Positions 3,907-51,817 of a DNA stretch of 53,173 nucleotides are shown in pieces. Position 1 is the first letter of the stretch. Each line of letters begins with the position of its first letter. A program made the position numbers and the translations under genes. Where the stretch lies: the IMG/VR virus record IMGVR_UViG_3300015024_000005, positions 1 through 53,173 of that record; one strand, 5' to 3'. Under the pieces are notes generated by a model. It was not told the DNA's origin. It searched no databases and worked only from the letters and a program-made list of their open reading frames with translations. The DNA is from a virus.

Positions 3907-4941
3907 TTAAAAAGATACTTCAACTTCATCATGGTTAACTTGTACATATTGTACTTTAGCGCCTAAAGCATTTACTAAAGCAGCATACGATGCGAAGTCC
4001 ATAACGCAAAGATCTGGTTTTCCACCTTCACGATTTAAGAATGCTAATGCATTCGTAATACCTTCTTCGATAGTGAACGCTTGAGCGTTGTATCGTAGTC
4101 CAGCAAGACGTGTAGGGTCAGCAGAGCGGTTAACTCCCCAGAAGTTATCATTAGCAGCAGGTGTAGTTACTGGTAACCAAGCAGCTAAGCCTGATAATGC
4201 CAAGAAAGATCCTGTGTTAGTAGCTCCTGTTAAAGGGATATCACCTGATACTGATAAGTATGACAAACCTGTACCGATAGCCCAGTTAGCAGATAATGGA
4301 CCTGCTGAAGCTGTACCAGTGATGATACCGTTTGCGCGGTCAACACCTGTAACGATAATTGAATCTGAAGAAGGTGCTCCACCGTCTGTAGCAGAAGCTA
4401 CTAACAGTTGTCCAACTTCGATTGATACGATTTGTTGTGAATTTGTAATAGTGATTGATACTCCACCTGGAGCGGTACCTGATTGAGAAGATACTGCTGA
4501 TCCAATAGCACGAGTAGCTGTACCTGATCCAAACAATTCAAATGCGATATTGTTTGTTAAGTTACGGAAACCACCATCCATTTGTAATTTAGCTGCGTCT
4601 ACGAACGCACCAGCTGAAGTCTTAGTTTGTTCCATTAACAAATTAGTAATAGTTACTAATTGGTAATCTTGGATTACATAGACAAAGTAACTAACTAAAG
4701 CTACTGCTGTTTGTTGTTGTTGAGCATTTTGGAATGTATGTGAACGACCTTGTGGTGCTCCATATTCTAATGGTACTGGAATGTATTTTCCTGCGAAACC
4801 ATCTGGACTCTCGTCTTTAGGTACTAATGCCAAGAATGGATTTTCCTTGTAAACTAGATCCTTCATGTACTCTTTATCATCTTTGTATAGCTCTTTTAAT
4901 GAAGCTATCTGGTTCGAACTGTTAGCAAATTGTGCTGCCAT
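3907..4941 (-). CDS. Major capsid protein, N-terminal 344 residues
   Basis: Lies directly downstream of the scaffold and portal genes and begins MAAQFANSSNQIASLKELYK. Residues 24-60 (YMKDLVYKENPFLALVPK, then GFAGKYIPVPLEYG) are typical of the capsid N-arm of this podovirus-type family. NNIAFELFGSGTATRAIG and a beta-rich, Ala/Gly/Thr-rich insertion follow. AGGA lies 7 bases before ATG. The frame is stopped at 3909-3907 while clear capsid sequence continues in the same frame to 3643. The protein would assemble, with scaffold, into the icosahedral shell; a product cut at residue 344 would lack its last fifth and probably could not assemble. Confidence 0.88.
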   Translation of the reverse strand: MAAQFANSSNQIASLKELYKDDKEYMKDLVYKENPFLALVPKDESPDGFAGKYIPVPLEYGAPQGRSHTFQNAQQQQTAVALVSYFVYVIQDYQLVTITNLLMEQTKTSAGAFVDAAKLQMDGGFRNLTNNIAFELFGSGTATRAIGSAVSSQSGTAPGGVSITITNSQQIVSIEVGQLLVASATDGGAPSSDSIIVTGVDRANGIITGTASAGPLSANWAIGTGLSYLSVSGDIPLTGATNTGSFLALSGLAAWLPVTTPAANDNFWGVNRSADPTRLAGLRYNAQAFTIEEGITNALAFLNREGGKPDLCVMDFASYAALVNALGAKVQYVQVNHDEVEVSF

Positions 4942-5067: not shown

Positions 5068-6093
5068 TTAGTACTTCTCACCTTTAAACGCTAATATAGC
5101 TCTTTCCTTAGCTGATAACTGTCTATTGGAAGATGCTGCATTCGTTAAAGTCTTCATTGTTTGTTGTGGCTGCTGTGTTTGAGTAGCTCCTGGTGTCTTC
5201 TGGGAGTTGGTTGCAGGTCGCGTTGCACTCGCTTGCTGTATCCGGTTCTTAATCTTATTGATGTTAGCTACCTTGGTATACTCATCTGCTAGGTAGTCTT
5301 CTACTTGTTGCGCTGCTTCTTCAACTGTTAATAGATATCCGTCTTTTTCGTATGTTTGAGTGATTAGCTCAACTACATCTCTAGTAGCTCGAGTAGCTTT
5401 AATAGTTTCAAAATTAGGGTCATTCTTTACTAGGGCTTTTACATCTAGTTCAATCTGTTTAACTGCTGCTTGATACTGAGCGGTTTGCTGCTCTTCATAG
5501 CTTTTTTGCGTTGTCTTATTAGATTCTTCTAATGCTGCAATCTTAGCTTCCAGCTTTTGAATGGTAGATTGTACTCGAGGGTCTGTAGGTTGTTGATTAA
5601 TGATTTGCTGAGTAAGCTCTTCATAACTAACACCTGCTTCTGCAAGGGCTGTTAAAGCGTCTTGTTTCAGCATATCTCTAGAAATATACTTAGACATATC
5701 TGTTTGAGGTGTCTGTAAACTAGCCTCTTTAGCTTTAAAAGCCTCTTCACGAGTCTTAAATTGCTGTTCTTGCTGCTGTGCTCGTGCTCTTAAAGCCTTT
5801 TCTTGTCTGGCTAACTGAGCAAATTGACGGCTTAACGCTGGGTCTTCAGCTTTTTCAGGTGGAGCTTCTTGTGTATCTACCTGATCTTGCTCGTCATTAG
5901 AGGCTATCTGTTCATTTCTAGCTCTAATCGCACCCATTTCTTCTGGCTGTACCTGGTTCTGGTTTTGTACTGGTGATTGCTCAGGGGTTTGTTGGCCACC
6001 CATAAACGCTTGTACTGCTCGAGCTTTGGCGTCTACTTGAGGTGCTACTGGTGTTGCTGGAGCTGTTGGCGCTCCCATTGGCTTGATATTCAT
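5068..6093 (-). CDS. Scaffolding protein
   Basis: A 341-residue hydrophilic protein, rich in Q, E, A and K, placed between portal and capsid genes as scaffolds usually are. A proline/glutamine-rich N-terminus is followed by a long predicted coiled coil (about 85-220, e.g. LARQEKALRARAQQQEQQF) and a basic C-terminal tail (RQLSAKERAILAFKGEKY), where scaffolds usually contact the coat. It would guide procapsid assembly and then leave. Conservation of sequence is low, so the call rests on position and composition. The 126 bases between it and the capsid gene hold no gene and no convincing promoter. Confidence 0.75.
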   Translation of the reverse strand: MNIKPMGAPTAPATPVAPQVDAKARAVQAFMGGQQTPEQSPVQNQNQVQPEEMGAIRARNEQIASNDEQDQVDTQEAPPEKAEDPALSRQFAQLARQEKALRARAQQQEQQFKTREEAFKAKEASLQTPQTDMSKYISRDMLKQDALTALAEAGVSYEELTQQIINQQPTDPRVQSTIQKLEAKIAALEESNKTTQKSYEEQQTAQYQAAVKQIELDVKALVKNDPNFETIKATRATRDVVELITQTYEKDGYLLTVEEAAQQVEDYLADEYTKVANINKIKNRIQQASATRPATNSQKTPGATQTQQPQQTMKTLTNAASSNRQLSAKERAILAFKGEKY

Positions 6094-6111: not shown

Positions 6112-8022
6112 TTATTGTTGTGGGTTACCGTTTGGAATTAAAGGTGATTGTTGTTGTGGTTGTGGTGCAGCTTGTGGTGTTGGAGAAGGACCGCCTTGTG
6201 GTGGGGTCATGCCTGGCTGTGGTGCCATAGCTGCTTGTTTTAAGGTTTGAATTTGATTAAAGAAATCTCTTAGTTGGGAAGCTTTTTCTTCTTCTAGTTT
6301 AGCTTGAGAGTATAGGTTAATATACTGCACCGTAAGCTTAGTAGCTAAGTCTAGATCCATGAATGGATCGGGAGGTGTATATTTACCATCGTCGATGATA
6401 TCGTCTAATAGCTGGAATATGCGCTCTTCACCTGCATTAGCTAGCTTTTCAACTTGATCTAAGTCAGGGTAATCTAATAGTCTACGGCCTTCTTGTAGTG
6501 TAATCATCCCTGACTGCACCATCTCTGTAATCTTAGATAGGCGTCCTGCTGGATCTTTAGGTAGTGATGATTGAGTAAAACATTGGATAACAAATGCATC
6601 GTTAACTAGGTCTGCTTTAGATAGATCTATTTCTTTAGTACCATTTTTGTTAGGAAATACGGTTGAGTATTTACCATCCCGATCGACGATGTCTTTGGCA
6701 AGACCAACAATTTGGTATGTAATGTCCACAAACATATTATCATAACGACGGCTAAGACTAGCAAAGCGGTCCGTACTGATGTCGTCATACGTCCTAATCG
6801 CTTCGCCCGAATCCAAGCCTTGTGGCTTCTGACTAGACGCTTGCAATGCAGACACACCACATTGTTGATATCCGTATTGGATAAGTTTATCTCGTTCTGC
6901 ATACAATTCAGGTGCGTTACATGGTGCGACTTCATAGATTGGCTTTATACCTCTGTATTTAACAATAACTCCAATGTCATTGTTATGATGAGCTGAAGTA
7001 ACTTTAGATCCTTCTTCTTGAAATACTCTAGGTACTCCAATTAGTTTAATAGCTTTAGAAATAGTAAATAGTATGCTGTTTAGTTCTATCTGGGTGCCCA
7101 TTAGTTGTTCAGCTAGTCCTTGTGACCAGAAACCTAATAGACGTGGTGAGTAATGTAGAAATGTAAATGGGAATCGGTCCTTAGTGTAATCTTCGTCTAA
7201 TAATGATCCAGCAGAGCAAACAATCATGTGACGACCGTCTTTAGCGTTCTTACCTGATCTTAAGTGCCAGCCTTCTACTACCATTACTAAGTCAGATACG
7301 GTCTTAGATGCATCTGCTGAGTTGTCTGGGTATGCTTTAGCTGCAGCTTCTAGCTTTTGTCTAAGCTTAGGAAAACTAGCTATTAATACATCTCTATCTA
7401 CAAGCTTCATACGGTATATCTGTCTAGGCTCTCCGTACATAGCTTCATTTGGATCTACTAATAGCTCTGTTAAAAGCACTCGCTCTAAGCCGACTCTGTT
7501 ATCAGGGGTCTCGTAGGTATGTAACACTCCTGTCCCTGTTACTAAAGAATCTCTTAGGCAAGTTTGAGCAAGATCATAGGTTTTGGTAGCATAGAACTCA
7601 CCTTGTACGAAGTTATTAAGCTTCTTAGCTAGGTTACGTTCTTTATAGTTACCCATCTCCGTTAAGAACACTGGTTGAGGTCTTGACTGAGATATTCTTG
7701 ACACTAGTGTATCTGTAGCAGATTGCACTAGGTTGAATGTAGGACGGTCTTGAGGTAGACCTGAAGTTTGATCAATCTTTGACATATTACTACCAGCAAA
7801 CGAGTATAGACTCTGATTGCCGTATAGTTTAGCGTAGATTGCTGTTTGTCTGTATCTGTAGGCTTGAGACTCTTTAAGGTAGGCAGCAGTTGATAACATC
7901 TGCATTGCAGCTTTATCGTCGTCCTTCTCAGGCCACCACTGCTGCAGAGTCATAGACTCATTAACAGCTTTAGTCTTCATTGTGATTTTAGACTTAGGTC
8001 CTTGTGATGCTGTGACTTTCAT
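6112..8022 (-). CDS. Portal protein
   Basis: A 636-residue protein upstream of scaffold and capsid, with the features of podovirus-type portals: RPTFNLVQSATDTLVSRISQ near 94-113, YLKESQAYRYRQTAIYAKLY in the N-terminal helix region, then PRLLGFWSQGLAEQLMGTQIELNS and GVSALQASSQKPQGLDSGEA. The last 45 residues are rich in P and Q (e.g. GMTPPQGGPSPTPQ). Twelve copies would form the ring through which DNA is pumped by the terminase and to which the tail adaptor binds. ATG is preceded by AAGG. It is spaced 18 bases from the scaffold gene. Confidence 0.88.
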   Translation of the reverse strand: MKVTASQGPKSKITMKTKAVNESMTLQQWWPEKDDDKAAMQMLSTAAYLKESQAYRYRQTAIYAKLYGNQSLYSFAGSNMSKIDQTSGLPQDRPTFNLVQSATDTLVSRISQSRPQPVFLTEMGNYKERNLAKKLNNFVQGEFYATKTYDLAQTCLRDSLVTGTGVLHTYETPDNRVGLERVLLTELLVDPNEAMYGEPRQIYRMKLVDRDVLIASFPKLRQKLEAAAKAYPDNSADASKTVSDLVMVVEGWHLRSGKNAKDGRHMIVCSAGSLLDEDYTKDRFPFTFLHYSPRLLGFWSQGLAEQLMGTQIELNSILFTISKAIKLIGVPRVFQEEGSKVTSAHHNNDIGVIVKYRGIKPIYEVAPCNAPELYAERDKLIQYGYQQCGVSALQASSQKPQGLDSGEAIRTYDDISTDRFASLSRRYDNMFVDITYQIVGLAKDIVDRDGKYSTVFPNKNGTKEIDLSKADLVNDAFVIQCFTQSSLPKDPAGRLSKITEMVQSGMITLQEGRRLLDYPDLDQVEKLANAGEERIFQLLDDIIDDGKYTPPDPFMDLDLATKLTVQYINLYSQAKLEEEKASQLRDFFNQIQTLKQAAMAPQPGMTPPQGGPSPTPQAAPQPQQQSPLIPNGNPQQ

Positions 8023-9512: not shown

Positions 9513-9534
9513 ATAGAAGGCTATTCGTTCATTA
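9513..9534 (-). promoter_or_regulatory. Promoter-like repeat, copy a
   Basis: Read leftward: AATGAACGAATAGCCTTC then TATGA, with a TAA stop of the terminase gene as its first bases. It is one of four near-identical elements (others at 36922, 43576 and 51930). A hairpin follows (ATACC, 6 bases, GGTAT; 9496-9511), then GGAGG and a start codon. It resembles a single-subunit phage RNA polymerase promoter. This copy differs at the last bases (TATGA instead of TATAG). Confidence 0.6.
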
Positions 9535-10959
9535 TTCTTCGCCTTTCATCCATTTATCGAACTCAGCTTCTTTGGTATACCCTTCTAATTCAGCTTCAAA
9601 CATGGTATCGTGCTGAGCGTCTGCCCATTCCTTAGTGCCCCACTTCGGTTTAGCTGCTTCTTCCTTGTGTGTATAGGCATAGGACTCTTTAAAGGCATAT
9701 AGGACAGCGTCAATGATGTCACTGTGTGGTTTCTTCTTAATCACTATCTTATTAGGGGTAGACTTATCCCAATCAATTTGGACGATATACGAGTCTTGAG
9801 CAAACCTTGAGTTTTCAAATGCTTTAAACTTACCTAACCGCATAGCATCATTAAGTAATTCAACATTTGTTTGTTTCTTAGCTTTATCTGCAGCTTCTAA
9901 TGGCACTCCAAACCGTTGTCTAAGGTCTTCAGCTACCTTCTTACCTAAAGCACCTTCGTCCATAATGATCTTATAGGCATTGTATTTCTTCTGCATTGTC
10001 TCAATCTGAGTGGTTAGTGCTGATATACCTTGCTTAGATTTAATGCTCTCTTCTACCAGGTACGTTGTAGGGCACGTTTCAGACCAAGCTAACACAGCAA
10101 TAGCATCTGCATCGTTAAATCCAATATCTACACCTAGTATGTAATTCCATTTATGATTTACTGGTAACTCATTGTAATCATTAGTATTTTTAGAATATCT
10201 GATCCATAATGATTGAGCATCTAATACCCACTTGTTACGATATTCTCGTAGTAATGTTGGGTTATCGTGCTGCCATTCTCTTTTTTTAATCAACTCAGCT
10301 ATAAACAGCTCTGGGTTTGGCATATATGGATTATCTAGTAAAGTCCATTCGTGATGAGAATACCCATATTTATGGTTATTTGTAACGTCAAAGAAATAAC
10401 CTTGTGGAACTGGCCCTGGAGTACCTGTTAAAGCAAGCCAGCCATCTGCATAGTCTGAGATAGAAGGTGTTAATACGTCGTCTACCAAGGATTGTAAATG
10501 CACTCCAAAATCTTGTGCTTCGTCAATCCCTACACCTGGGTACTTACGTCCTTTTAGACGTTTAATGAAGTTCTTCATATCTGCCCCAAATAGCTTAAGA
10601 TTAGAGCCGTTTGGATGTTTCATTGTTAATTTAGATTCTAGAAAAGTACAGCCTATTTTATACTTGTCGTTAATTTCTTGTAATACTGGCCAGAGGATCT
10701 CTCTAGCTGAGTCTAAGGTTAGTCCTAGGTATATACACTGGCTCTTTGGGTACTTCTCTAGTGTTCTAAAAAACCTTAATGCTAGCCCATTAGTCTTACC
10801 TGCCCGACGTGAGCACTGAGCATCTATGAATCTAGCCGTATCCTCTACAAAAGCGTTTTGCTGTGGAAAGTCACCACTTAGTTCAACTGAATTGGTAGGT
10901 GCTTGCGACTTCCTAGATAACGCTTCTACTAATAGGCCAGACTTACTTACTAAGCTCAT
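9532..10959 (-). CDS. terL: Terminase large subunit
   Basis: A 475-residue DNA-packaging motor with both domains visible. ATPase: Walker A CSRRAGKT near 49-56, Walker B VGIDEAQ near 143-149, coupling motif LTGTPGP near 177-183. Nuclease (RNase H fold): first Asp in ILGVDIGFNDADA near 274-286, then IIMDEGALGKKVAEDL, and the last acidic residue in HSDIIDAVLYAF. It would cut concatemeric DNA and pump it through the portal. It overlaps the 88-residue gene upstream by 17 bases. Its stop codon forms part of the promoter-like repeat. Confidence 0.93.
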   Translation of the reverse strand: MSLVSKSGLLVEALSRKSQAPTNSVELSGDFPQQNAFVEDTARFIDAQCSRRAGKTNGLALRFFRTLEKYPKSQCIYLGLTLDSAREILWPVLQEINDKYKIGCTFLESKLTMKHPNGSNLKLFGADMKNFIKRLKGRKYPGVGIDEAQDFGVHLQSLVDDVLTPSISDYADGWLALTGTPGPVPQGYFFDVTNNHKYGYSHHEWTLLDNPYMPNPELFIAELIKKREWQHDNPTLLREYRNKWVLDAQSLWIRYSKNTNDYNELPVNHKWNYILGVDIGFNDADAIAVLAWSETCPTTYLVEESIKSKQGISALTTQIETMQKKYNAYKIIMDEGALGKKVAEDLRQRFGVPLEAADKAKKQTNVELLNDAMRLGKFKAFENSRFAQDSYIVQIDWDKSTPNKIVIKKKPHSDIIDAVLYAFKESYAYTHKEEAAKPKWGTKEWADAQHDTMFEAELEGYTKEAEFDKWMKGEE

Positions 10960-18829: not shown

Positions 18830-19135
18830 TTATTTTAATGGTACTGGTAAATACGTTCCACAAAAACCGTTTCCTTTCAATACGCTTGCTAAAAAAGGAT
18901 TGGCTTGAAATACTAAATCTCTAAATAGCTCAAAACTATATAATGCTTTTAATAAAATATCTAATGGTATTGAACCCCAATGTCTAATTTTCTGCTCATA
19001 TTGAGACACCCATCTGTTTTTGTGTTTTATGTAAAAAGAAATAGGAGCCTTACTGCCGGATCTGCCAGATTTATATATTTCTACCCTATTCCCTACTCCT
19101 GCTTGATTTATTACACAACTACCTATTAAAATCAC
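18830..19135 (-). CDS. Unknown ORF ending in a capsid-N-terminus-like segment
   Basis: A 101-residue frame from GTG 19135, which overlaps the phosphoesterase stop (GTGA), to TAA at 18832-18830. Residues 1-60 are not recognised (GNRVEIYKSGRSGSKAPISF, KNRWVSQYEQKIRHWG). Residues 62-101 match the start of the major capsid protein of this window: DLVFQANPFLASVLK against DLVYKENPFLALVPK, then GFCGTYLPVPLK against GFAGKYIPVPLE. The segment stops just where the capsid continues. DNA similarity is visible but diverged (CCAGTACCATTA is identical). It may be a remnant of a second capsid gene after recombination, or a fused peptide with its own role. Whether it is translated is uncertain. Confidence 0.5.
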   Translation of the reverse strand: MILIGSCVINQAGVGNRVEIYKSGRSGSKAPISFYIKHKNRWVSQYEQKIRHWGSIPLDILLKALYSFELFRDLVFQANPFLASVLKGNGFCGTYLPVPLK

Positions 19136-36921: not shown

Positions 36922-36943
36922 ATAGAAGGCTATTCGTTCATTA
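36922..36943 (-). promoter_or_regulatory. Promoter-like repeat, copy b
   Basis: Read leftward: TAATGAACGAATAGCC then TTCTATAG, the TAA being the stop of the 1061-residue gene. A hairpin follows in the presumed leader (GGTG, 8 bases, CACC), then AAAGGACG and the ATG of the gene at 36880. Confidence 0.65.
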
Positions 36944-39900
36944 CTTACGATTTGAACGGTCAGACTCAGCAGATTGATTAGGAGTCTGGAATTGCTTCTC
37001 AGCTTTACCCACTTTAGATGGGCTACCCTTAGACTTACCTTGAGGCTGCTGTCCGTCTGTTTGTCCACCTTGAGGTTGATGGCTCATTTGAGCTGCCACT
37101 ATGCTCTGGGGGCTCATAGTGCTATCCATAGGCTGACCTAGAAACAAACTAATGCTCATGCGAGTCTTATAAGGTATTGTAACGCCTTTTTGATGCGCTT
37201 TTATCAATTCTTGTGACATTTGAGTCTGCATTTGTTGATAAACAGCCGGATATAAGTGATGTAAGTCTTGTATATCACTAGCTTGCAATGTACCATCTTT
37301 AACGTGCTGCATTACAATAGACGGCTGCTGAGCTATGTTCGAAGCTCTTTCATACCTTTGAAGCTCTGCCTTAGTTGGCTGCACTTCTTTATCTAATGGA
37401 CCAGATCTGTACGGATGGGGCTTTAACTGCCCAAGGTATGCAGCAGCTTGCGTCGTAGCTTGAGACATAGACGTTTGATGACTGCCTAAATAATGGCCTA
37501 AATCACCATTATCAATTTGTTGCAATTTGTTGGGTGTTTTTTGCATTTCACTAATAACCTTATCCAGCTTAGCTCTATCTGCTTTGTCTGGTATTAAATG
37601 GCTAGCTAACACCTGAGCTTCGGGTTTAAATACAGCTTTAACTGCATCTTGCACACGATTAGCGCCTGTATAAGTGTTATGTAAGTAATCTACCATTGAT
37701 TTAAAACCTGAAGCTTTCACTTCAGCGTTGCTACCCATGAACTTTAAGTACGCAAGTCTGATAGCGTCTGGAGCTTGTCTGCCAAGTCTCTGAGCCATCT
37801 CTCCGCCTAAATAACCAGAGATAGGATTATGCCCTGTCATAATAGCTACACCTGCTAAAGCACTAGCTGGCATTTGTTGAGTGATCTTAGATATCCACCC
37901 GGCTGTATTCGAAGACTTAGGGCCTGGAATAGCTCCTGCTACCGTTTGAGCTGCCGTGATCTTTTGTAATGCCTCTGGAGACAATAATGATTCCACGTAC
38001 TCTTTTTTACCTGCCATTGCTTTATCAACAATCTTAGATAACTTATCAATATCTATAGGGTTTTCGCCTTTAGCGGATAATATAGAAGGTTTAATTAATT
38101 GACGTAATTCACTCTGCTTAACGGCATTTAAAGTATCCGGGAAGTTTTTCTGTAGAAATGGTATAAAATCAGCATTATCTCTAATTGAGAACTTTTTTAA
38201 TACGTCTTCAGCAGACACTCTATCAGTCAATTTGTTACTAACTCCTTTAGCGCCTCTAAACTCACCCACACCTAAATGCGTAGTCAGCTCATCACTCATC
38301 TTAGAAAAGTTAGCGTATTCTTTGTTTAGTTGAGCGCGTTCTTCAATTGTTTGTAAACCAAGGTCTTTAGCTCCAGTAACTCCAGCCTTTTCTAATGTAG
38401 ATGCTTGCTTAGTAATCTCTGATTCTTGGAAGTCTTTAATCATAGATTTAATATCACTTAAAGCATTAACAGTGTTCTGATCTCCACCGATCTTTAACCC
38501 TTTGATTCTATTGTTAATTTCAGTATTTAATTTATCCATACCGCCAATAGTATCTTTAGCTAAAAGTCTATTACCATACTCTTCATATAGCTTGTAGTAA
38601 GGACTATCTGTACCTAGCTCATTCATTCCACGCTCAACAATTTGACCATATTTTGCTAGTCGAGCTTCATCTGGTACGCTAATAGTAGACGATAACTCTC
38701 TTTGGGCGGCGTATTTAGCATCAAACGGCTCGTATTTAGTTTTATACTCATTCTTAAAAGCGTCTAATACAGCATGTCCTTCTTCATTATTAGAAGAGAC
38801 TAACACGTCTTCAGGTGTTATACCCAGGGACTTCATAACAGAATTACTTGAATCTGTTTTAAGTTTCTCGATACCTGCTAATATCTCCGGGTGTTGAGTT
38901 TCTTTTAAAACATTAAATGAATTAACCAGCTTAGGGTCTCCCGACAAACCTGCTCTAATAGCTGGAGGTACGTCAATACCTAGCGTAGTAACCGCTCCAT
39001 TCACAGCTTCAGGTAGTATTTCTTTAGCTCCACCATTTAAGTGATTTTTTAAACCAGTGAGTAGTTGTTCTACTTTAGGTCCAGCCGTAGCCTTCCATAA
39101 AGGACTAACTGCACCTATGCCAGCTCCCATAACTCCGCCTAGAGCAGTCGATAGACCTACGTTAGCTATAGCATGCTGAGCACTACTATCTGGATCTTTA
39201 ATGATAGCTTTAGATGCCTCATCACTACCTTGTAGGAATGCCATTTCAGCAGCACTACTAACCGCAGCAGATCCTATTTTAAATCCTAATGATGTACCTT
39301 CAGCAAGTCCAGCAGCTTTAGCAGCTCCTTGACCTACTTTAGCCATTATAGCGCCTTCTCCGACGCCCGTAAACATACTAGCGCCTAAGCCAACTGCTTG
39401 ACCTACACCTTGAGTAATAGGGTTTTCTCTCTTACGTCCTAAGATATCTTCAGGCTTAACGCCTAAAAATCTCTCAGCAGCAGGAGCTAATGGGCCTGCT
39501 ATACCTTCAGCAGCGCCTTCTAGACCTGCTTTAGCTTGTTGACCTAAACTACCATATTTTTCTGATTCTAATTCAAAGCCAGGGGGTATTGGAGGCACTT
39601 CTCCAGACACACCACTGGCTTGTTGACCTTCTAATTGAAAACCTTCAGGAATAGGAGGCATACCAGCCATTCCACCGTCTGCAAAACTCATAACTTTTTT
39701 GTCTTGAGATTTCTTGTTTTCTATCTTTTTCATTACATAGCCAGATTTAGTCTTACTTACTGCTTCTGGATGTTTCTTTTTGAGCTTTTCCCACATTCCA
39801 GTAGCTCCAGGCTCCATAGCGTCTAAATCATCTGATTTTACAAAGCCTGTAGTCTTTGCAACGTGCTTATATAGACCTTCAGATACACCTTGTCTTCTAT

Positions 39901-40126
39901 GCTCAGGATCTACATAAGAAGCTTTAACGCTTCCTTCATCATCTCGACCCAAATGTCCAATAACCTTTTTATTTTTTACTGCGTAGTGGATATCGTCCAC
40001 TGTATTTAATCTGTGATTTTCTCCAACCTCATTATCAATATCTGCTGCTGCTAAATGCTGATCAGGTATTTGTACGCCTTCAGGTAATTCAGATCTATCA
40101 TGGTAAGTAACCTTACTATCAGCCAT
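36941..40126 (-). CDS. Large internal virion protein with N-terminal GNAT domain
   Basis: A 1061-residue protein. Residues about 40-130 match a GNAT acetyltransferase: VIGHLGRDDEGSVKASYVDP, then EHRRQGVSEGLYKHVAKTTG with the RRQG acetyl-CoA loop. VMSFADGGMAGMPPIPEGFQ follows (AxGGM motif), then Gly/Ala-rich stretches (GAIMAKVGQGAAKAAGLAEG) that could enter membranes, and a long helical part. The C-terminus is low complexity (PQGGQTDGQQPQGKSKGSPS). Size and layout fit an ejection protein released into the host with DNA. It abuts the 692-residue gene by one base. Confidence 0.72.
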   Translation of the reverse strand: MADSKVTYHDRSELPEGVQIPDQHLAAADIDNEVGENHRLNTVDDIHYAVKNKKVIGHLGRDDEGSVKASYVDPEHRRQGVSEGLYKHVAKTTGFVKSDDLDAMEPGATGMWEKLKKKHPEAVSKTKSGYVMKKIENKKSQDKKVMSFADGGMAGMPPIPEGFQLEGQQASGVSGEVPPIPPGFELESEKYGSLGQQAKAGLEGAAEGIAGPLAPAAERFLGVKPEDILGRKRENPITQGVGQAVGLGASMFTGVGEGAIMAKVGQGAAKAAGLAEGTSLGFKIGSAAVSSAAEMAFLQGSDEASKAIIKDPDSSAQHAIANVGLSTALGGVMGAGIGAVSPLWKATAGPKVEQLLTGLKNHLNGGAKEILPEAVNGAVTTLGIDVPPAIRAGLSGDPKLVNSFNVLKETQHPEILAGIEKLKTDSSNSVMKSLGITPEDVLVSSNNEEGHAVLDAFKNEYKTKYEPFDAKYAAQRELSSTISVPDEARLAKYGQIVERGMNELGTDSPYYKLYEEYGNRLLAKDTIGGMDKLNTEINNRIKGLKIGGDQNTVNALSDIKSMIKDFQESEITKQASTLEKAGVTGAKDLGLQTIEERAQLNKEYANFSKMSDELTTHLGVGEFRGAKGVSNKLTDRVSAEDVLKKFSIRDNADFIPFLQKNFPDTLNAVKQSELRQLIKPSILSAKGENPIDIDKLSKIVDKAMAGKKEYVESLLSPEALQKITAAQTVAGAIPGPKSSNTAGWISKITQQMPASALAGVAIMTGHNPISGYLGGEMAQRLGRQAPDAIRLAYLKFMGSNAEVKASGFKSMVDYLHNTYTGANRVQDAVKAVFKPEAQVLASHLIPDKADRAKLDKVISEMQKTPNKLQQIDNGDLGHYLGSHQTSMSQATTQAAAYLGQLKPHPYRSGPLDKEVQPTKAELQRYERASNIAQQPSIVMQHVKDGTLQASDIQDLHHLYPAVYQQMQTQMSQELIKAHQKGVTIPYKTRMSISLFLGQPMDSTMSPQSIVAAQMSHQPQGGQTDGQQPQGKSKGSPSKVGKAEKQFQTPNQSAESDRSNRK

Positions 40127-43995: not shown

Positions 43996-44232
43996 CTATT
44001 TACTCCTGTTACGTTTAGTATTTGGTAAATCAAACTTATAGTCGCATATATTCCAAGAATTAGAAACCTTCTTGTAACTACCACCGTTTGATAAATCAGT
44101 ATCAAGCCTAACAGCTCTATTTGCAAGCTGTTTTGCTTTAGATTTCCATTTAGATTTATAACCATCTACTGCAATAGGTTTACGATAAGATCTAGCCAAA
44201 CGATTGATTCGCTTTTTGCGCTCTGTAACCAC
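43996..44232 (-). CDS. Basic hypothetical protein, 78 aa
   Basis: From GTG 44232, overlapping the nozzle gene by 41 bases. The sequence is highly basic (VTERKKRINRLARSYRKPIA at the start, KSKWKSKAKQLANRAVRLDT) and ends NTKRNRSK, so it may bind nucleic acid or acidic partners. A TTG twelve codons later would avoid the overlap but has no ribosome binding site. The gene fills the space between the nozzle and GNAT genes. Confidence 0.5.
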   Translation of the reverse strand: MVTERKKRINRLARSYRKPIAVDGYKSKWKSKAKQLANRAVRLDTDLSNGGSYKKVSNSWNICDYKFDLPNTKRNRSK

Positions 44233-47206
44233 GTTTTGTACCTACGATAACATTAATTCCGCTAAGAGTTAAACCTTCTCCAGCTGGAATATTAAAGCTA
44301 TTGTCGTAGATTTCATTTACAACTAATTGAAATGTCTCACATTTTTGAACTTGTGGAAATAGTCTCATCTCTAATATGTTAGTTACTTTAATGTTAGAGC
44401 CCCCATAAGAGCCCCCGCTACCCCATAACGCTTCGCCACCATAGCTAGGTACATAGTTGTCAGGTATCATAATATTACTTTGTTGTGGTCCTGGATTGTA
44501 ATCATAAGCTATTTGTACTTGTAACTTAAACGGCGTTATATAAGTACCTTCTAAATACAAGAAATAGAAACGCTCAAGACCTTGAATACCTGCTAATGAT
44601 ATCCATCCAGTAGTAAACGACAACAACACTGGTGTACTACCGTCTAAATAAACACCTGGTGTTTCTTGATATACAAACCCTAAATTGTTTAAGTAAGTAT
44701 CTTTACCATTAAATAGTACAGATGAAATACTTCCAACATTGCTAAATGTACCCCATTGCTGGTAAAAGTAGTCAAAAACTAATGTAATAGAGTTATCTAA
44801 TGCAAACCTAACCTGATTAGTACCCGGTATTGACAAAGCACTAGTAACTGTACGCTTGTTATATTTATCTACAGGCGCTCCAATATAAGTCGTTTGTAAA
44901 TCTCTACCCAATAGCCAGATACCTTTATCAGACTGAAACATAATGCCATTAGGCATTAGAACAACTGAGTTAGGATTAGCCGAGCCAACACTAGAAGTAA
45001 TAAATATAGGATCACTGAAGTCACTGTTAGCTCCTGTGTTATCTGGACCAGTACCTGTAATGTAATATATAGCATCTTTTTTAAAGATAATAAGTTTATC
45101 GTCCATTGCAGATAAAGCCTTCATTGGACCTGTAGAGCCTTGAGCACCTGATGTAGGTGCAACATAGATAGTCAATAGATCCGACATCTCAACTGGTACA
45201 GCTTGTATCACTTGTTTACTAAACCATAATAAGTTTTGATCTTCTGCATCAATTAGAAACAATCTGTTCTTAAACAATGTACTAGAAGTAGACGCTGGAG
45301 CTGCAATGTCTTCTAACACTCCACCAGTGGTATATAATAATGTCTGACCTAAGATAGCACTATCAGCTAAAGTGTCTGTAATAGTTACGCTATCAATCGT
45401 AGGGTCATTGATAATAGGACTAGTTAATGGTGTAAACTGATAGTATGTTTGTTGAGCTACAGACCATCTATACCCTACAATGCGAACTCCTGTCTTATAA
45501 GTAAGACGTAGTGTTGGCACGTTTATTGTGATTGAGCTTGTAGCTCCTGTAGTTACAATAGAGCTAGGGATTGAAGGTGCTGAACGATGTAAGTTACCTT
45601 GATTGTCTGTCCACTCATAAGTAAATGCATAGTAATAAGTACCTGCTGTTATATTCCCACCCGTAGCAGATGTTGCTAATGCTACGTTCTCAGGCCATAC
45701 ATGAAATCCATGTTCTACTGGCTTATTACCGTCGTACTGCCATAGCTGACCACCTGTTAAGTGTAGTGTTGCAGCTATCTCACTAGATCGTTGTGTATTA
45801 GAATTAATTTGAAACTTAACTAAATTAATACCTGTTTGAGTATATATGCCATTGACAGGTGTACCATTAGGTAAGTTTGTTAACTTATTAACAGAAGCTA
45901 AGAAGTCTTTAATTAGATATGGAGTGTAAAAGCTACCGTTTAAACTAGTTACGTTAGCTAGCACTTGAGTTGTGTTATATCCACCACCGTTAGCATAAGC
46001 AAGTCTAGCAAATATATTACCATTAGAATCAATTAAGAAGTATGTTGGCTCGTTAGGTCCTCCATAAGTTACTATCATGTAGATTAAACCACTCTTATCT
46101 ATAAACGCTTTAGAGAACAGTCCTACAGACCTTAATATGACTACAGTTGGAGTAATTACACCTGTCTGAGTGATTGTGAGGCTAGATATAAAGTCTGACT
46201 TAGCGTTAGGTGCATAACTATAAGTGTTAACAGTCTCATACATAATGGTTACAAGTCCTGCACTAGCTACTGAAGTAATCTGGGCTAGCGTTGAGCCTGA
46301 TATAATAATTGTTGCTGGAAGTATAGTGGTATTTAACAATAGGTTATACCCTACAATACCCCCTATTTTGGACACACTGTCGTAGTAAGTTGTATATATT
46401 ACGTTATTAATGCTATCTGATGACATTGATATTAAGGTTGCTGTAGCTCCTGCTAATGGGAATGAAGCTTGTAGCACTAAAGAAGGTGTTATATAAGTAG
46501 TAAAGATTTGATTGCTTACAGTAGCATAACTAATGTATAAATTACCGTTAAACCCTAGTACAGCGTCATATCCAGCACTAGCGGGTACTTGAACACTAAA
46601 ATCTTGTGTAATTAAAGGTGCCGTAGGTAATGTAATAGGGATTGGAATGTATTGAAGATGCAATACTCCACCTATATTTGATATAAATGTAACCATAAAA
46701 TAGTTACCTAGTATAAATACTTTAGCCGACGCTGCTGGAAAAGTAGATGCTAATGCCCTACCAACAACTGTTTGCCCTGTAGCACTATCTGATATCTGGT
46801 AGTAAACAAATCCATTATCTAGATAAACAGTGCAAGCTAGTCCATTGAAAGCTACCTGCATATCTGGAGCTGATTGACTAGTACTATTTCTAACTAAAGC
46901 TTGTGTAGATATCTTAACAGGTTGTACAAGCCCCTGGTTTAACCATTGATTTGTATCCGCACTAAACGCATAAAGGTTTGATCCTGTAGCTATTAAGTTA
47001 TTGTTTAAAGTTGTTAAGTTTGTTTGTTGAGTGTTTGGTAGCTTTGTAATGATAGGAAAGCCATTACGCTTAGTTAATGCCCCTTGTTTATCAAAGACAG
47101 AGTTTTGTAGTTCTAAGAATTTACCTACCTGGACTTGTTTAGAGTCTGATTTAGTATCTAAACCTTGAGCAAAGTTAATGTTAATAGGTTGTTTAGTTAA
47201 TGGCAT
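44192..47206 (-). CDS. Tail nozzle / tubular protein, 1004 aa
   Basis: A large beta-rich protein of the type seen as the tail tubular B/nozzle of podoviruses: ININFAQGLDTKSDSKQVQV near 7-26, a beta-propeller-like middle (YQISDSATGQTVVGRALAST), WQYDGNKPVEHGFHVWPENV, FVYQETPGVYLDGSTPVLLS, and FYFLYLEGTYITPFKLQVQI. It lies downstream of the adaptor gene (in transcription order: surface proteins, adaptor, nozzle). It would form the distal tail tube and anchor the needle or fibre tips. Confidence 0.8.
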   Translation of the reverse strand: MPLTKQPININFAQGLDTKSDSKQVQVGKFLELQNSVFDKQGALTKRNGFPIITKLPNTQQTNLTTLNNNLIATGSNLYAFSADTNQWLNQGLVQPVKISTQALVRNSTSQSAPDMQVAFNGLACTVYLDNGFVYYQISDSATGQTVVGRALASTFPAASAKVFILGNYFMVTFISNIGGVLHLQYIPIPITLPTAPLITQDFSVQVPASAGYDAVLGFNGNLYISYATVSNQIFTTYITPSLVLQASFPLAGATATLISMSSDSINNVIYTTYYDSVSKIGGIVGYNLLLNTTILPATIIISGSTLAQITSVASAGLVTIMYETVNTYSYAPNAKSDFISSLTITQTGVITPTVVILRSVGLFSKAFIDKSGLIYMIVTYGGPNEPTYFLIDSNGNIFARLAYANGGGYNTTQVLANVTSLNGSFYTPYLIKDFLASVNKLTNLPNGTPVNGIYTQTGINLVKFQINSNTQRSSEIAATLHLTGGQLWQYDGNKPVEHGFHVWPENVALATSATGGNITAGTYYYAFTYEWTDNQGNLHRSAPSIPSSIVTTGATSSITINVPTLRLTYKTGVRIVGYRWSVAQQTYYQFTPLTSPIINDPTIDSVTITDTLADSAILGQTLLYTTGGVLEDIAAPASTSSTLFKNRLFLIDAEDQNLLWFSKQVIQAVPVEMSDLLTIYVAPTSGAQGSTGPMKALSAMDDKLIIFKKDAIYYITGTGPDNTGANSDFSDPIFITSSVGSANPNSVVLMPNGIMFQSDKGIWLLGRDLQTTYIGAPVDKYNKRTVTSALSIPGTNQVRFALDNSITLVFDYFYQQWGTFSNVGSISSVLFNGKDTYLNNLGFVYQETPGVYLDGSTPVLLSFTTGWISLAGIQGLERFYFLYLEGTYITPFKLQVQIAYDYNPGPQQSNIMIPDNYVPSYGGEALWGSGGSYGGSNIKVTNILEMRLFPQVQKCETFQLVVNEIYDNSFNIPAGEGLTLSGINVIVGTKRGYRAQKANQSFG

Positions 47207-48462
47207 TAAGCTATCCAGGTGATAGTAAGTATACCTGATCCACCAGCTCCGCCGACAAAGGCCCCGCCAATACCTCCGCCGCCTCCGCCGCTGCCAGATC
47301 CGCCGTTACCCCCTGCAGATCCTGTATATGCTCCACCAATGCTATACGCAGAGCTAGTACCATCATTTGAAGTACTAAAAACATTACTACCAAAGAAAGT
47401 ACAAGAACTAAACTGAGTAGTCCCTCCAGTATTGCCTCCGCCGCTGCCAGATCCGCCCGCGCCACCACCACCTATGGTAGCCGTTATGACTTGACCAGGA
47501 GTTACTGCTAAAGAGTAGTACCCAGGCATTGCATTAGCTCCACCCAGCCCGGGTGTTAGGCCATCACTAGAGCTTGAAGCTCCTCCATGCCCTCCACCAC
47601 AGCCATTAACTGTTAGAAGGGTTACTCCTGCTGGAACTGTAAAAGTACTAGTAAAGGTAAAGGTTTGAGATTGTAAAGATTTATTAATACCGCTCGCTAG
47701 CTTAGCTGCTGTTACGGAGCCATCGGCTATCTTAGCTGTGGTAACACTTTGGTCAGCCAATTTAGCTGTGGTTACGTTTAAATCTGTTATCTTAGACGTT
47801 ATAATAGCATTTGGGGCTATATTAACTGTATTGATACCAGCTTGAATAGGGATTGTATTAGTAATAATACCTGCATTGTCTATTTGTAAGAAGCTAGGTA
47901 CTGCTGGTACTACAGGTAAAGTAATAGCCGTATTAGAAGACATTCCTGGAGGTGGTTGTAAAGTTAAACTAAATGTGCTATTAGGTAGTAAGTTTCTAAG
48001 TATAGCACTACCAAAGTCCATATTAGCAGCCCGATTAATGTTAGACTGCCACACAAACACACTAGATCCAGCAACGTAAGACGCTGAAGCTGGTGCTACT
48101 AAGTTAGCTATAGATCCTGGAGTACCTGCTACTGAACCAAAAGTAGTTAATCTAATGTTGTTACCAATGCCGTCTACAAAATATAAATCACTGCCTGATT
48201 GATATAAAGTATTTACGGGAGGTACTATAGTTTGAGCTGTAAACTGTAAACCTTTTAAGCTTAAAGCATTGTTATTATTAAAACTTAAGTCTGTATTAAT
48301 ATTAATACTAGCAGCTGTAATCGGAGCACCTTTACCAGGTGTATGATCATGCGCATCTATTAGTGTTAACGAAGCGTTAATGTCTAAAGCGTACGCAGGT
48401 CCGGCTTCAGTACCAACTCCGGGTATTTGAAGACTCATATTAGGTGATAATAGTATTGCCAT
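47206..48462 (-). CDS. Fibre-like structural protein with Gly-rich C-terminus, 418 aa
   Basis: The middle contains 10-residue repeats (TAKLADQSVTTAKIADGSVT, then AAKLASGINKSLQSQTFTFT), a common linker of phage fibres. The C-terminal 130 residues are a Gly/Ser-rich domain (VNGCGGGHGGASSSSDGLTP, ATIGGGGAGGSGSGGGNTGG) that ends ILTITWIA, a known Gly-rich receptor-binding tip type. It overlaps the nozzle gene by one base. It should form part of the tail tip. Confidence 0.7.
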   Translation of the reverse strand: MAILLSPNMSLQIPGVGTEAGPAYALDINASLTLIDAHDHTPGKGAPITAASININTDLSFNNNNALSLKGLQFTAQTIVPPVNTLYQSGSDLYFVDGIGNNIRLTTFGSVAGTPGSIANLVAPASASYVAGSSVFVWQSNINRAANMDFGSAILRNLLPNSTFSLTLQPPPGMSSNTAITLPVVPAVPSFLQIDNAGIITNTIPIQAGINTVNIAPNAIITSKITDLNVTTAKLADQSVTTAKIADGSVTAAKLASGINKSLQSQTFTFTSTFTVPAGVTLLTVNGCGGGHGGASSSSDGLTPGLGGANAMPGYYSLAVTPGQVITATIGGGGAGGSGSGGGNTGGTTQFSSCTFFGSNVFSTSNDGTSSAYSIGGAYTGSAGGNGGSGSGGGGGGIGGAFVGGAGGSGILTITWIA

Positions 48463-48747
48463 TTAGAACATCCAAACACTAATGACACAAGGAGCATTAG
48501 AAGTTAAAGTTAAAATCTTATCATTAAACGGCTGTGATCTATAGATAACTGCCGCCGCATTGATATCAGTAATGAAAAATCCTGTTTGTTTCTTACTTAA
48601 TAAATGATTTATGTTATTCACTCCATTAATTAATGTTATATTAGATATTAGCTTACCTTGGGTTAATACATTCTTAATCAATGGATCTAAAGATGTAGCC
48701 CAAACAGTTTGAGCCATGTCCCATGTTAATTGCTTAGGTAGACTCAT
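48463..48747 (-). CDS. Virion-associated hypothetical protein, 94 aa
   Basis: A small, mixed protein: SLPKQLTWDMAQTVWATSLD, then TLINGVNNINHLLSKKQTGF, and a beta tail (ILTLTSNAPCVISVWMF). This resembles a small protein encoded next to adaptor and nozzle genes in other phages. It abuts the fibre gene by no gap and overlaps the adaptor by one base. Function unknown; likely a tail part. Confidence 0.6.
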   Translation of the reverse strand: MSLPKQLTWDMAQTVWATSLDPLIKNVLTQGKLISNITLINGVNNINHLLSKKQTGFFITDINAAAVIYRSQPFNDKILTLTSNAPCVISVWMF

Positions 48748-49799
48748 TAAAAGCCTCCCATTGATCCGTTAGTACCAAACCCAAAGCCATTGCCGCCTGA
48801 GTTACGAACGTCACTAATAGTATCTGGCATTCCAGCGTCACGATTAGCTGCTGATTCTTCAATACGTTGTTTAAGGAATAATATCTCTTCTTTAAGGTTA
48901 TTAGTGTCTGATTCTTCTTTATCTAAAGCAAACTTAGCTGCTCTAACGATAACATATTCGATCCAGCCTGATATACCTATGTCTGTAGTGTCTGTTTCTT
49001 GTAATAACTCTATAAGTCTAGGAATGTACCATAAGCGGTACACTTGTCCTGATGCTGGTAAAGGTATAAACTCAATATTCTTACCTAGTAAACGATATTC
49101 TGTGTTAACTGCACCGTATGCTGTAGGTAAGGTGTTATATGGGTTACGCTTGTTACGTTCAGCGAAGTTAAACTTTCTTAACGTATAATAAGCATTTGGA
49201 GATGAATTAATAGCCAAATCTACACCTAATAGCTTATAGAATGGTCTAGCTACTACTGGTTGATTTGTTATAGCATTGTTAAAAGTTATAGAACCGTCTG
49301 GTAGTGGGTATAGAATAGTAGACCCATTAGCTCTAAATGATACTGGAGTAGCTATAAAGTAATCTTCGTATACTGTAACTAATAAATCATACAATTCAAA
49401 CATAGCTTGGTTTATGTAACTATTCCATTCAGGTAAGGTTACAAAGTTAGAGTTAACCCTATCTGCACGTTGCTGTGCTCTTAAACGTATTTGAGACAGC
49501 GTCATCTCACCTGTAGGCGTTGGTGTCACTGATTGCGATATGGTATTAGAGCTAGTACCTGAGATATTAGACGCTGCTACCATATAATAATAAGTTGTAC
49601 CTAACACAACCGCTGTATCTAAAAAACTAGTTGCTAATGGTGTACCAGTTAATGTAGCTACGATTGTATAGGTAATATCATCTAAAGAACGACTAACAAT
49701 GTAGCTAGTCGAACCTGTAGATAAAGACCAACTAACCAAGTTTTGTTGGTTAGCAGTCTGAACATTAAATTGTTGAGGTGTCCCAGGTATTCCAGACAC
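48747..49799 (-). CDS. Head-tail adaptor with N-terminal FN3 domain
   Basis: A 350-residue protein. Residues about 3-95 are a fibronectin type III domain: GTPQQFNVQTANQQNLVSWS, YIVSRSLDDITYTIVATLTG, and LGTTYYYMVAASNISGTSSN. Residues from 99 on are a podovirus adaptor (tail tubular A-like): MTLSQIRLRAQQRADRVNSN, EWNSYINQAMFELYDLLVTV, and RLWYIPRLIELLQETDTTDI. The adaptor would sit on the portal ring, and the FN3 domain would be on its outer face. AGGGAGAATAAAATC precedes the GTG/ATG region at 49799. A Gly-rich end (GGNGFGFGTNGSMGGF) closes the protein. Confidence 0.8.
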   Translation of the reverse strand: MSGIPGTPQQFNVQTANQQNLVSWSLSTGSTSYIVSRSLDDITYTIVATLTGTPLATSFLDTAVVLGTTYYYMVAASNISGTSSNTISQSVTPTPTGEMTLSQIRLRAQQRADRVNSNFVTLPEWNSYINQAMFELYDLLVTVYEDYFIATPVSFRANGSTILYPLPDGSITFNNAITNQPVVARPFYKLLGVDLAINSSPNAYYTLRKFNFAERNKRNPYNTLPTAYGAVNTEYRLLGKNIEFIPLPASGQVYRLWYIPRLIELLQETDTTDIGISGWIEYVIVRAAKFALDKEESDTNNLKEEILFLKQRIEESAANRDAGMPDTISDVRNSGGNGFGFGTNGSMGGF

Positions 49800-49803
49800 G
49801 ATT

Positions 49804-51132
49804 TTATTCTCCCTGTACTATGATACTTGAATTACTTAATAAGAAGGCTAAGCTAATTACAGTGCCGTCTACTGGTGCTGCTAAAGCCCCTGAGTAACCG
49901 CGACATTGTAGGATGAATTGAGCGCCAAAGCCTTGATTAGCTGAAGCTAATGGATTGCTAGATAAAGTAGGGTCACCTAATACTTCTATAGTAACTATAC
50001 CTGATCCGGTAGCTTGAGCAGTTACAACTTTAGATATTAAGATGTTACCAGCTCCACCCGTAGACGATGCGATAAAGCTAACGCCAACTGCTGGTTTTAC
50101 TCCAATAGGTACACCGATAGCATACCATTTAGAAGCAGGTGCATTACCTAACACAGAAATTACATACGCTGTACCAATAACTAATACTGAATTATCAATG
50201 CTAGTATTAGTAGGTGCTAATCCTGTGATAACATTAGAGAATCCGCTTAATGATCTATTGTATCCATCTACTAATTTAACTACAATAGTACCTGCCAAAG
50301 GTCCTGTAGTAGTTGACGATGACGATGAAACATTAGTAATGATTGAAGCAGCACTGATAGTGATAGCTCCTGTTAAAGCTACTAGATTGCCATCTACAGT
50401 ACCGCCACCGATAGTGACGCTTACTTGAGCAATTAAATGTCCTTTAAACGCTGAAGCTCCAGTTACGTTAATAGTAGCTGATGAACCGATTGCCCAGTAT
50501 ACGTTTGAAGCTAGTGCCCCACCTGTAAATACCATGGTAGCGGCTCCGCCTGCTCCTGTGGTTAACGTAGATGCAGTTTTTATGATAAAAATATCTGTAG
50601 CTGATCCGCTAAATGTTAATACCCCTGGCGCTGAAGTAGCTAATGTAGCAGCTCCTGAAGCAAAACTATATACACCTGCTGTAAGCACTTGAGCATCTAA
50701 AGCAGAAGGTATTACAGTTGAAGCTAATGCCTGTAATGCAGTATAAGCTGCAGTGGCGTCAATTTGACCTTGATTAGCTACTGAGTCTGTAATATGTTGT
50801 ACACCTATTACTGTACCTGGTGGGAATCCTGTGACAGATGTACCAGCATATAGACCTAAGTCTCCTGTAATTACTGAAGATCCTGTATTAGTTATAGTAG
50901 AAGCTGCTAATATTGCAAAGTTCTTAGATGTACCTAATACTGGAGAACCTGCAGGAGGGTTAGATAAAACTACTCCAGGTCCTCGCATAGTAACGCTCTT
51001 AATAGTAGGGCCTTTTAAAGCTCTAATACCCGATGCTTGAGTTGAATCTACGATAAAATTACAATCTAATAGTACGGGGCTCGTATGCATTGCATAGATT
51101 TTACCCCCGCTTGAAAAATTTCTATTAGCCAT
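49804..51132 (-). CDS. Virion protein with inserted DUF3494 (ice-binding-like) domain
   Basis: A 442-residue protein. Residues 1-63 (MANRNFSSGGKIYAMHTSPV) and 279-442 (TIVVKLVDGYNRSL, GDPTLSSNPLASANQGFGAQ, FLLSNSSIIVQGE) match the shorter gene just upstream. Between them, residues about 71-267 have the DUF3494 signature: FAILAASTITNTGSSVITGD, LGLYAGTSVTGFPPGTVIG, LTAGVYSFASGAA, NVYWAIGSSATINVTGASAF. DUF3494 domains are beta-solenoids known from ice-binding and some adhesion proteins. Here the domain is probably displayed on the capsid or tail. Start has GGGAG 8 bases before ATG. Confidence 0.82.
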   Translation of the reverse strand: MANRNFSSGGKIYAMHTSPVLLDCNFIVDSTQASGIRALKGPTIKSVTMRGPGVVLSNPPAGSPVLGTSKNFAILAASTITNTGSSVITGDLGLYAGTSVTGFPPGTVIGVQHITDSVANQGQIDATAAYTALQALASTVIPSALDAQVLTAGVYSFASGAATLATSAPGVLTFSGSATDIFIIKTASTLTTGAGGAATMVFTGGALASNVYWAIGSSATINVTGASAFKGHLIAQVSVTIGGGTVDGNLVALTGAITISAASIITNVSSSSSTTTGPLAGTIVVKLVDGYNRSLSGFSNVITGLAPTNTSIDNSVLVIGTAYVISVLGNAPASKWYAIGVPIGVKPAVGVSFIASSTGGAGNILISKVVTAQATGSGIVTIEVLGDPTLSSNPLASANQGFGAQFILQCRGYSGALAAPVDGTVISLAFLLSNSSIIVQGE

Positions 51133-51136
51133 GGTC

Positions 51137-51817
51137 TTATTCTCCCTGTACTTTAATTGAAGAATTTGATAACAAGAAAGATAAGCTAATACGACTACCT
51201 GGTGTAGGAGCTACTAAAGCTCCAGTAAAATCACGACATTGAAGAATGAATTGAGAGCCGAATCCTTGGCTAGCTCCTGGGTTTGGAGCTATTGATAAGC
51301 TAGGGTCACCTAGAATTTCAATAGTAGCAATAGATGATCCTGTAGAAGCTGCTACTTGAACTGCCCCTGAACCCGAACCTATTCCTGTTAGAGCTGCTAC
51401 GAAAGATACTCCGATAGCTGGAGTAACACCCGCTGGTACCCCTAATTTCTGCCAACTAGCTATAGTTGTAGATCCTAGAAAGGTAATTACATAAGCTGCC
51501 CCTACTGTTAAAGCTGATCCTGAAGCTATTACTAGAATAGGAGTACCACTTAACGCTGGGCTAACTATGTTAAAACCTGTTAAATATTGACTATAATTGT
51601 CTGCCAACTGCACTACAATCGTTCCGATAGCTGGATTTGGGTTACCTGGAGCTGGAGTAGCTGAAGTGTGCATAAATACGTTTGAAATTGCAGGTCCTTT
51701 TAGACTAGTGATGCCTGCTGCACTTGCTGGTGCTACTACAAAATTACAGTCTAATAAGACTGGCATTGTATGCATACTGTAGATTTTACCGCCATTAGAC
51801 CAATTACGATTTGCCAT
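51137..51817 (-). CDS. Virion protein, paralogue without DUF3494, 226 aa
   Basis: Begins MANRNWSNGGKIYSMHTMPV and shares with the next gene its N-terminal 60 residues and the beta-rich C-terminal part, ending FLLSNSSIKVQGE. It is the ancestral-looking form lacking the DUF3494 insertion. AGAGGATATTC precedes ATG. Related proteins of about 180-230 residues are found in many podovirus genomes as virion decoration or head proteins, but I am not certain of their place in the particle. Confidence 0.72.
   Translation of the reverse strand: MANRNWSNGGKIYSMHTMPVLLDCNFVVAPASAAGITSLKGPAISNVFMHTSATPAPGNPNPAIGTIVVQLADNYSQYLTGFNIVSPALSGTPILVIASGSALTVGAAYVITFLGSTTIASWQKLGVPAGVTPAIGVSFVAALTGIGSGSGAVQVAASTGSSIATIEILGDPSLSIAPNPGASQGFGSQFILQCRDFTGALVAPTPGSRISLSFLLSNSSIKVQGE

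Follow-up and report, generated by a model that had tools for sequence, protein, structure and literature searches.

The known type 1 ice-binding proteins (IBPs), among them EfcIBP (6eio), AnpIBP (7bwx) and SfIBP (6bg8), are either secreted or found at the cell surface. For AnpIBP, the ice-binding site has been published residue by residue, and the substitutions S153Y and T156Y lower the activity of the protein to 17% (PMC7277481). Among phages, Ig-like domains such as those of T4 Hoc are optional display domains that are shuffled between head and tail proteins of unrelated phages (PMC10385173). Ig-like domains are also known to be shuffled more widely among phages. Plain and extended forms of one virion protein are familiar from gp10A and gp10B of T7 and from other long and short pairs of capsid or tail proteins. 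Finally, genes matching PF11999 have been reported in Arctic vOTUs, where they were annotated as host cryoprotection genes; fusion to virion proteins is not discussed in the relevant sections of that study (PMC11515562).

We analyzed a 53,173-base record (the window) of a tailed phage known only from metagenomes; it carries genes for a terminase, a P22/SU10-like portal, a major head protein, a DNA polymerase and helicases, and that both starts and ends inside the structural gene block. One of its genes encodes P442, a protein with a DUF3494 domain in a loop of a smaller scaffold, and the adjacent gene encodes P226, its paralogue without the insert (Table 1). P442 shares with the type 1 IBPs a whole-domain profile match, a predicted beta-solenoid with a long helix, Ser/Thr ranks on the B-face, and the key Ser and Thr of AnpIBP. 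What sets it apart from the known IBPs is that its DUF3494 domain lies within a structural-type phage protein, as an internal insert, and falls in a separate clade of phage domains. Like the Ig-like domains, phage DUF3494 is optional and shuffled, and unrelated phages have it in head as well as tail proteins, although its fold is different and carries a flat surface-binding face. P226 and P442 resemble the T7 pair in being a plain and an extended form of what would be one virion protein, but they come from two neighbouring genes, each with a ribosome-binding site, require no frameshift, and differ by an internal insert. With the Arctic genes, this locus has in common the presence of DUF3494 in a viral contig. 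The known kind to which it belongs is likely that of shuffled phage display domains, and what appears to be new, as far as the literature searched allows, is DUF3494 as such a domain. The original prediction, made from sequence alone, described this display role as rarely reported. In the open-access papers that we searched, which are only part of the literature, we found none on DUF3494 in phages and none joining ice binding, phages, structural proteins and tail sheaths.

Table 1. Features of the window, with coordinates on the full 53,173-base stretch.
Feature	Position	Strand	Remarks
P442, 442-aa protein	49804-51132	-	P226-family scaffold with DUF3494 domain in loop
P226, 226-aa paralogue without insert	51137-51817	-	mostly-beta model, pLDDT 88.9
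DUF3494 / PF11999 Ice_binding module of P442	50332-50955	-	about residues 60-267, Pfam match 74-264
P350, conserved neighbour with N-terminal Fn3-like domain	48747-49799	-	head-tail connector or other structural role, inferred from position
P94, small conserved neighbour, function not identified	48463-48747	-	synteny
P418, tail-fibre-like	47206-48462	-	phrog_28766 tail fiber, E=5e-12
P1004, large conserved virion-type protein	44192-47206	-	weak tail appendage/internal virion protein matches
Major head protein gene	3907-4941	-	in-frame TAA at codon 345, homology to about 3646
Scaffolding-type protein, between portal and capsid genes	5068-6093	-	synteny, role inferred
Portal protein, P22/SU10-like	6112-8022	-	PF16510, E=4.7e-5
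Terminase large subunit	9532-10959	-	phrog_979, E=8e-11; PF17289

The PF11999 (Ice_binding) profile matched P442 residues 74-264 with E=1.3e-32, covering profile positions 1-207 of 208 and scoring 113.6 bits against a curated cut-off of 28.7. Against PDB sequences, P442 gave 17 matches, all of them ice-binding, antifreeze or DUF3494 entries, and the best was 6eio (E=9.8e-36, residues 64-264). An AlphaFold2 model built on an alignment of relatives predicts the domain with a pLDDT of about 93, flanked by poorly ordered or disordered links at residues 53-58 and 271-276. In this model a helix at residues 117-135 lies among short strands, as for a discontinuous beta-solenoid with an alpha helix on one face. 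Foldseek matched the domain to 31 PDB chains at E<=0.001, and the confident matches were DUF3494 structures only (6eio, E=3.5e-14; 7bwy, TM 0.89 by target length, rmsd 1.8). An origin of the match in chance or composition was rejected, given the full-length curated profile and fold matches. We conclude that the insert is a complete DUF3494 domain by profile, sequence and predicted fold. The original prediction had named the insert as DUF3494, and this held on all three counts: the profile search, in which a lack of any match would have refuted it, found PF11999, and structure prediction gave a beta-solenoid matching 6eio and 7bwy.

P442 and P226 are 65% identical over P442 residues 1-51 and 55% identical over residues 275-442, and these values mark them as paralogues rather than copies. 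Between the two matching parts lie about 208 extra residues of P442; we set the module ends (residues ~60-267) by comparison with relatives. The two ORFs are 4 bases apart on the same strand. Because a Shine-Dalgarno-like sequence precedes each of the two genes (AGGGAGA for P442), we regard P226 and P442 as separate proteins, and in the scaffold tree they are sisters with support of 89. By eye, the P442 N-terminus (MANRNFSSGG...) has no hydrophobic signal-type start, whereas many cellular DUF3494 homologues have one. A near-identical contig, L001, encodes the same P442 at 100%. An assembly chimera was rejected on the basis of this second copy and the repetition of the architecture in other contigs. 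The description of P442 as P226 plus some 200 inserted residues therefore held, with ORFs as originally described, an insert of ~208 residues and a paralogous pair. The module limits first proposed (residues 71-267, positions 50332-50922) held only in part, as the module is slightly longer (~60-267, 50332-50955).

The insertion point falls in a coil between strands 44-49 and 66-71 of the P226 model. Neither Foldseek with this model (at E<=0.001) nor a sequence profile search with P226 found any match in the PDB, and P442 and L089 matched no PHROG family. By VIA structure comparison, the best match of P226 was the C-terminal part of a tailspike (5jsd, Z 6.0), which is too weak to assign. The cement proteins 7dou, 8h89_J and 7eel_H scored Z 3.2-3.6, below the trust level, and stand among many jelly-roll-type folds.

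More can be said from the gene neighbourhood. The order portal - scaffold - major head protein - P226 - P350 - P94 - P418 - P1004 is kept across loci, and 71 of 84 IMG/VR loci have a P350 homologue together with P226. In many loci the P226 gene directly follows the capsid gene. In the window, other genes lie between the capsid gene and the P226/P442 pair, and the genes after the capsid gene include ParB-like and PAPS-reductase-like ones, by sequence reading. The capsid family is supported by matches to the major head protein family phrog_9953 in half of its members (9/18, best E=6e-14); the PF16510 match of the portal, at 22.5 bits, is just under the cut-off of 26.1. Because the structural gene order is conserved and sister DUF3494 domains occur in tail sheath and baseplate J proteins, the P226/P442 scaffold is very probably a particle protein, although its presence in virions is inferred. 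The same two lines of inference now support the label "virion protein", which was an assumption in the original prediction. It is likely, though not shown, that the P226 family are cement-like head decoration proteins, an inference resting on gene position and on fold matches too weak to trust.

Several other features of the structural genes were observed. The in-frame TAA of the window's major head protein gene (3907-3909, minus strand) could be a nonsense change, a sequencing error or unusual decoding, which we could not distinguish; no in-frame stop was seen in the major head protein genes of other loci. Some of these genes are split by inserts of ~750-950 bases (L121:2707-3452, L081:937-1709 and L080:2594-3519), at which Rfam identified no intron family. 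Elsewhere in the window, a 43-residue piece in another gene region (18836-18952, minus strand) is similar to the major head protein's N-terminal part (E=8e-5), and the N-terminus of a 1061-aa virion-region protein (36941-40126, minus strand) weakly matches GNAT acetyltransferases.

A family search of IMG/VR with P226 returned 91 relatives, of which 80 were kept, and 84 loci were read. No family member was found in INPHARED and none was confirmed in GTDB genomes. Looking for the insertion in related genomes, as originally proposed, we found DUF3494 at one shared loop in nine distinct family members (window/L001, L002, L015, L066, L099, L116, L117, L119 and L121). Only four of the nine (window, L002, L015 and L099) were seen to have a plain copy in tandem, so a mixture of plain and extended subunits is not general. 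Other relatives carry different inserts: ~60 residues at the DUF3494 loop in L070, L078 and L081, and ~120 residues at a second site near residue 120 in L079 and L083-L086. Neither kind matched a Pfam family at useful E-values. The P226-family scaffold thus has at least two insert-tolerant loops. Separately, the P350 homologues of L052 (5743-6984) and L054 (5748-6992) contain an insert matching P226 family profile positions 93-161, so P226 too seems to have had parts shuffled.

The domain is not confined to this family. A scan with seven phage DUF3494 sequences identified 71 viral loci. Internal DUF3494 domains occur in tail sheath proteins (phrog_279; L138, E=5.7e-26, and L132, 2e-22; L155 has weak sheath matches) and in a Baseplate_J protein (L105, E=3.8e-18). 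The remaining carriers include long tail proteins, besides proteins of other kinds. Once the domain was masked, carrier proteins sorted into four groups (35, 16, 11 and 4 members) and nine singletons. This count of groups is a minimum, because some of the links within the largest, in which baseplate proteins stand together with long tail proteins, rest on shared repeats. We conclude that DUF3494 occurs inside structurally unrelated virion-type proteins, namely tail sheath, Baseplate_J and P226-family proteins. Beyond what was originally predicted, then, this is not a single case of display: it recurs, through a DUF3494 clade specific to phages that has moved among unrelated virion proteins. 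At the sensitivity used, tblastn of P226, the window DUF3494 and two other viral DUF3494 domains against 50,697 named-phage records gave no match. Cellular loci with DUF3494 include Legionella and heated-soil genomes. Among the carriers, single phage proteins with two DUF3494 domains were observed (among L112, L115, L128, L131, L111 and L108), and in some contigs two or three different genes encode DUF3494.

We examined the history of the module in a tree of 86 phage and cellular DUF3494 domains. Fifty phage copies grouped at 99/99, apart from the cellular copies, while a few viral copies fell outside this group, some among cellular ones. The window domain is nearest to copies in 1400-aa tail proteins (68% identity), in an eight-row group at 100/95, and is closer to these than to the copies of its own P226 family. 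Placing the nine family copies in one clade was rejected (p-AU 3.6e-5), as was joining the window domain with L099/L119 (p-AU 0.005) or L118/L126 (0.001); the latter two values are indicative only, the groups having been chosen after the tree was seen. On the scaffold tree, the DUF3494 state requires six changes and a single clade was again rejected (p-AU 2.8e-7). A single ancestral insertion followed by plain descent is therefore rejected on both trees. Since a single clade is excluded and the window domain is nearer to tail-protein copies, we conclude that the scaffold family acquired DUF3494 several times, or acquired and lost it several times, and that the module passed between unrelated phages. 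A recent transfer into the window phage was not seen: the best cross-family DNA identity of its domain is only 65-68%, so the exchange that reached this phage was not recent.

Consistent with a surface-binding role, P442 retains the residues of the putative ice-binding face. S217 and T220 align with AnpIBP S153 and T156, and the mapped B-face rows read TSVT (loop), STITNT, GAITIS, VSVTIG, SSATIN and STLTTG. Thr occupies rank 4 in all mapped rows, and rank 2 reads T, A, S, S, T. Rank 2 of EfcIBP, a weaker binder, resembles this pattern, whereas in SfIBP it is all alanine (PMC12337378). Within the phage clade, outward B-face positions are modestly more conserved than the rest of the domain (p=0.04, or p=0.009 with G/P/W columns left out); the test excludes rows within search patterns (two of five), which shrank the signal to p=0.04. 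Because the same B-face pattern is common in cellular DUF3494, it cannot separate ice from another ligand. We regard surface binding by the P442 domain as likely, on inference and without binding data. Ice is a plausible ligand that has not been shown, and polymers or minerals fit as well; the data leave open the range first suggested, which covered ice, host polymers and other particles.

Taken together, these results suggest an explanation that we favor by a modest margin. P226 and P442 would have arisen by tandem duplication of a small virion protein, mostly beta in structure and most likely a cement-like head decoration protein, whose gene lies near that of the major capsid protein. One copy would have stayed plain while the other took a DUF3494 beta-solenoid into an inter-strand loop, on flexible linkers, and the particle would probably mix plain subunits with subunits projecting the ice-binding-type domain. 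The module would come from the phage-specific DUF3494 clade, shuffled between unrelated virion proteins much as Ig-like domains are. Its most likely role would be that of a multivalent adhesin, whose flat, Thr/Ser-ranked B-face attaches to some ordered surface, be it ice or, near hosts, a repetitive polymer or mineral, and may hold particles there. Computation establishes the domain identity, predicted fold, insertion site, recurrence, phage clade, repeated acquisition and retained B-face residues. Virion presence and place, mixed stoichiometry, binding and ligand are all inferred from sequence alone, with no proteomics. Display of DUF3494 on the virion is very likely on genomic grounds, with the loop position known from a monomer model only.

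Two branches of this explanation differ in the ligand. In the first, DUF3494 is a general flat-surface binder that adheres to the host surface, environmental polymers or minerals and raises the encounter rate, as Ig-like domains do; we see it as no more probable than improbable. In its favor, unrelated phages carry the domain in their tail sheath, baseplate or long tail proteins, sister phages have other inserts at the DUF3494 loop, and one phage-contig protein (L149:4449-6017) carries DUF3494 together with a C-terminal CHB_HEX_C_1 domain. Against it, none of the solved DUF3494 relatives that we found is named as a polysaccharide binder. The second branch, true ice-binding display that keeps virions at ice or guards them through freeze-thaw, we judge less probable than its absence. 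All 17 PDB relatives, with 6eio the nearest, support it, as do both retained AnpIBP key residues, the complete Thr ranks and the EfcIBP-like rank 2. However, DUF3494 has also been described for substrate-binding proteins and temperate organisms (PMC12337378), its cellular carriers include the Legionella and heated-soil genomes, and for the phage copies no sample temperatures are available, a search of papers for the IMG sample identifiers having revealed no environment.

A third possibility, less likely than not, is that the scaffold is a neck, spike or minor tail protein, which would place the display at the tail. The genes downstream are fibre- and tail-type and the top VIA match is the tailspike part, but the gene directly follows the capsid gene in many loci and, by inference, tandem duplication suits a decoration protein. 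A bolder reading is also possible, though less likely than not, in which uncultivated phages have turned DUF3494 into a general virion surface module, recombined among head, sheath and baseplate proteins, and the particles bind ice. By contrast, a host-directed cryoprotection (auxiliary metabolic) gene, the reading given to three Arctic vOTU genes annotated as ice-binding-like (PMC11515562), is very unlikely here: the domain is fused inside a conserved structural-type scaffold rather than encoded as a stand-alone secreted protein, P442 lacks a signal-type start, nor can the sheath and baseplate fusions be taken for secreted proteins of the host.

The fusions in the window's clade thus argue against a host-cryoprotection reading for that clade. 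At least there, ice-binding-type domains in viral contigs are parts of structural proteins rather than host antifreeze genes, and the annotation of PF11999-type viral matches would change. The DUF3494-bearing protein also offers a natural scaffold for display, with the loop for insertion already defined. The finding further suggests, in a directly testable form, how phages may endure or wait on surfaces in habitats that freeze or dry out. If the domain does bind ice, viruses with ice-adhesive coats would be new to cryosphere ecology.
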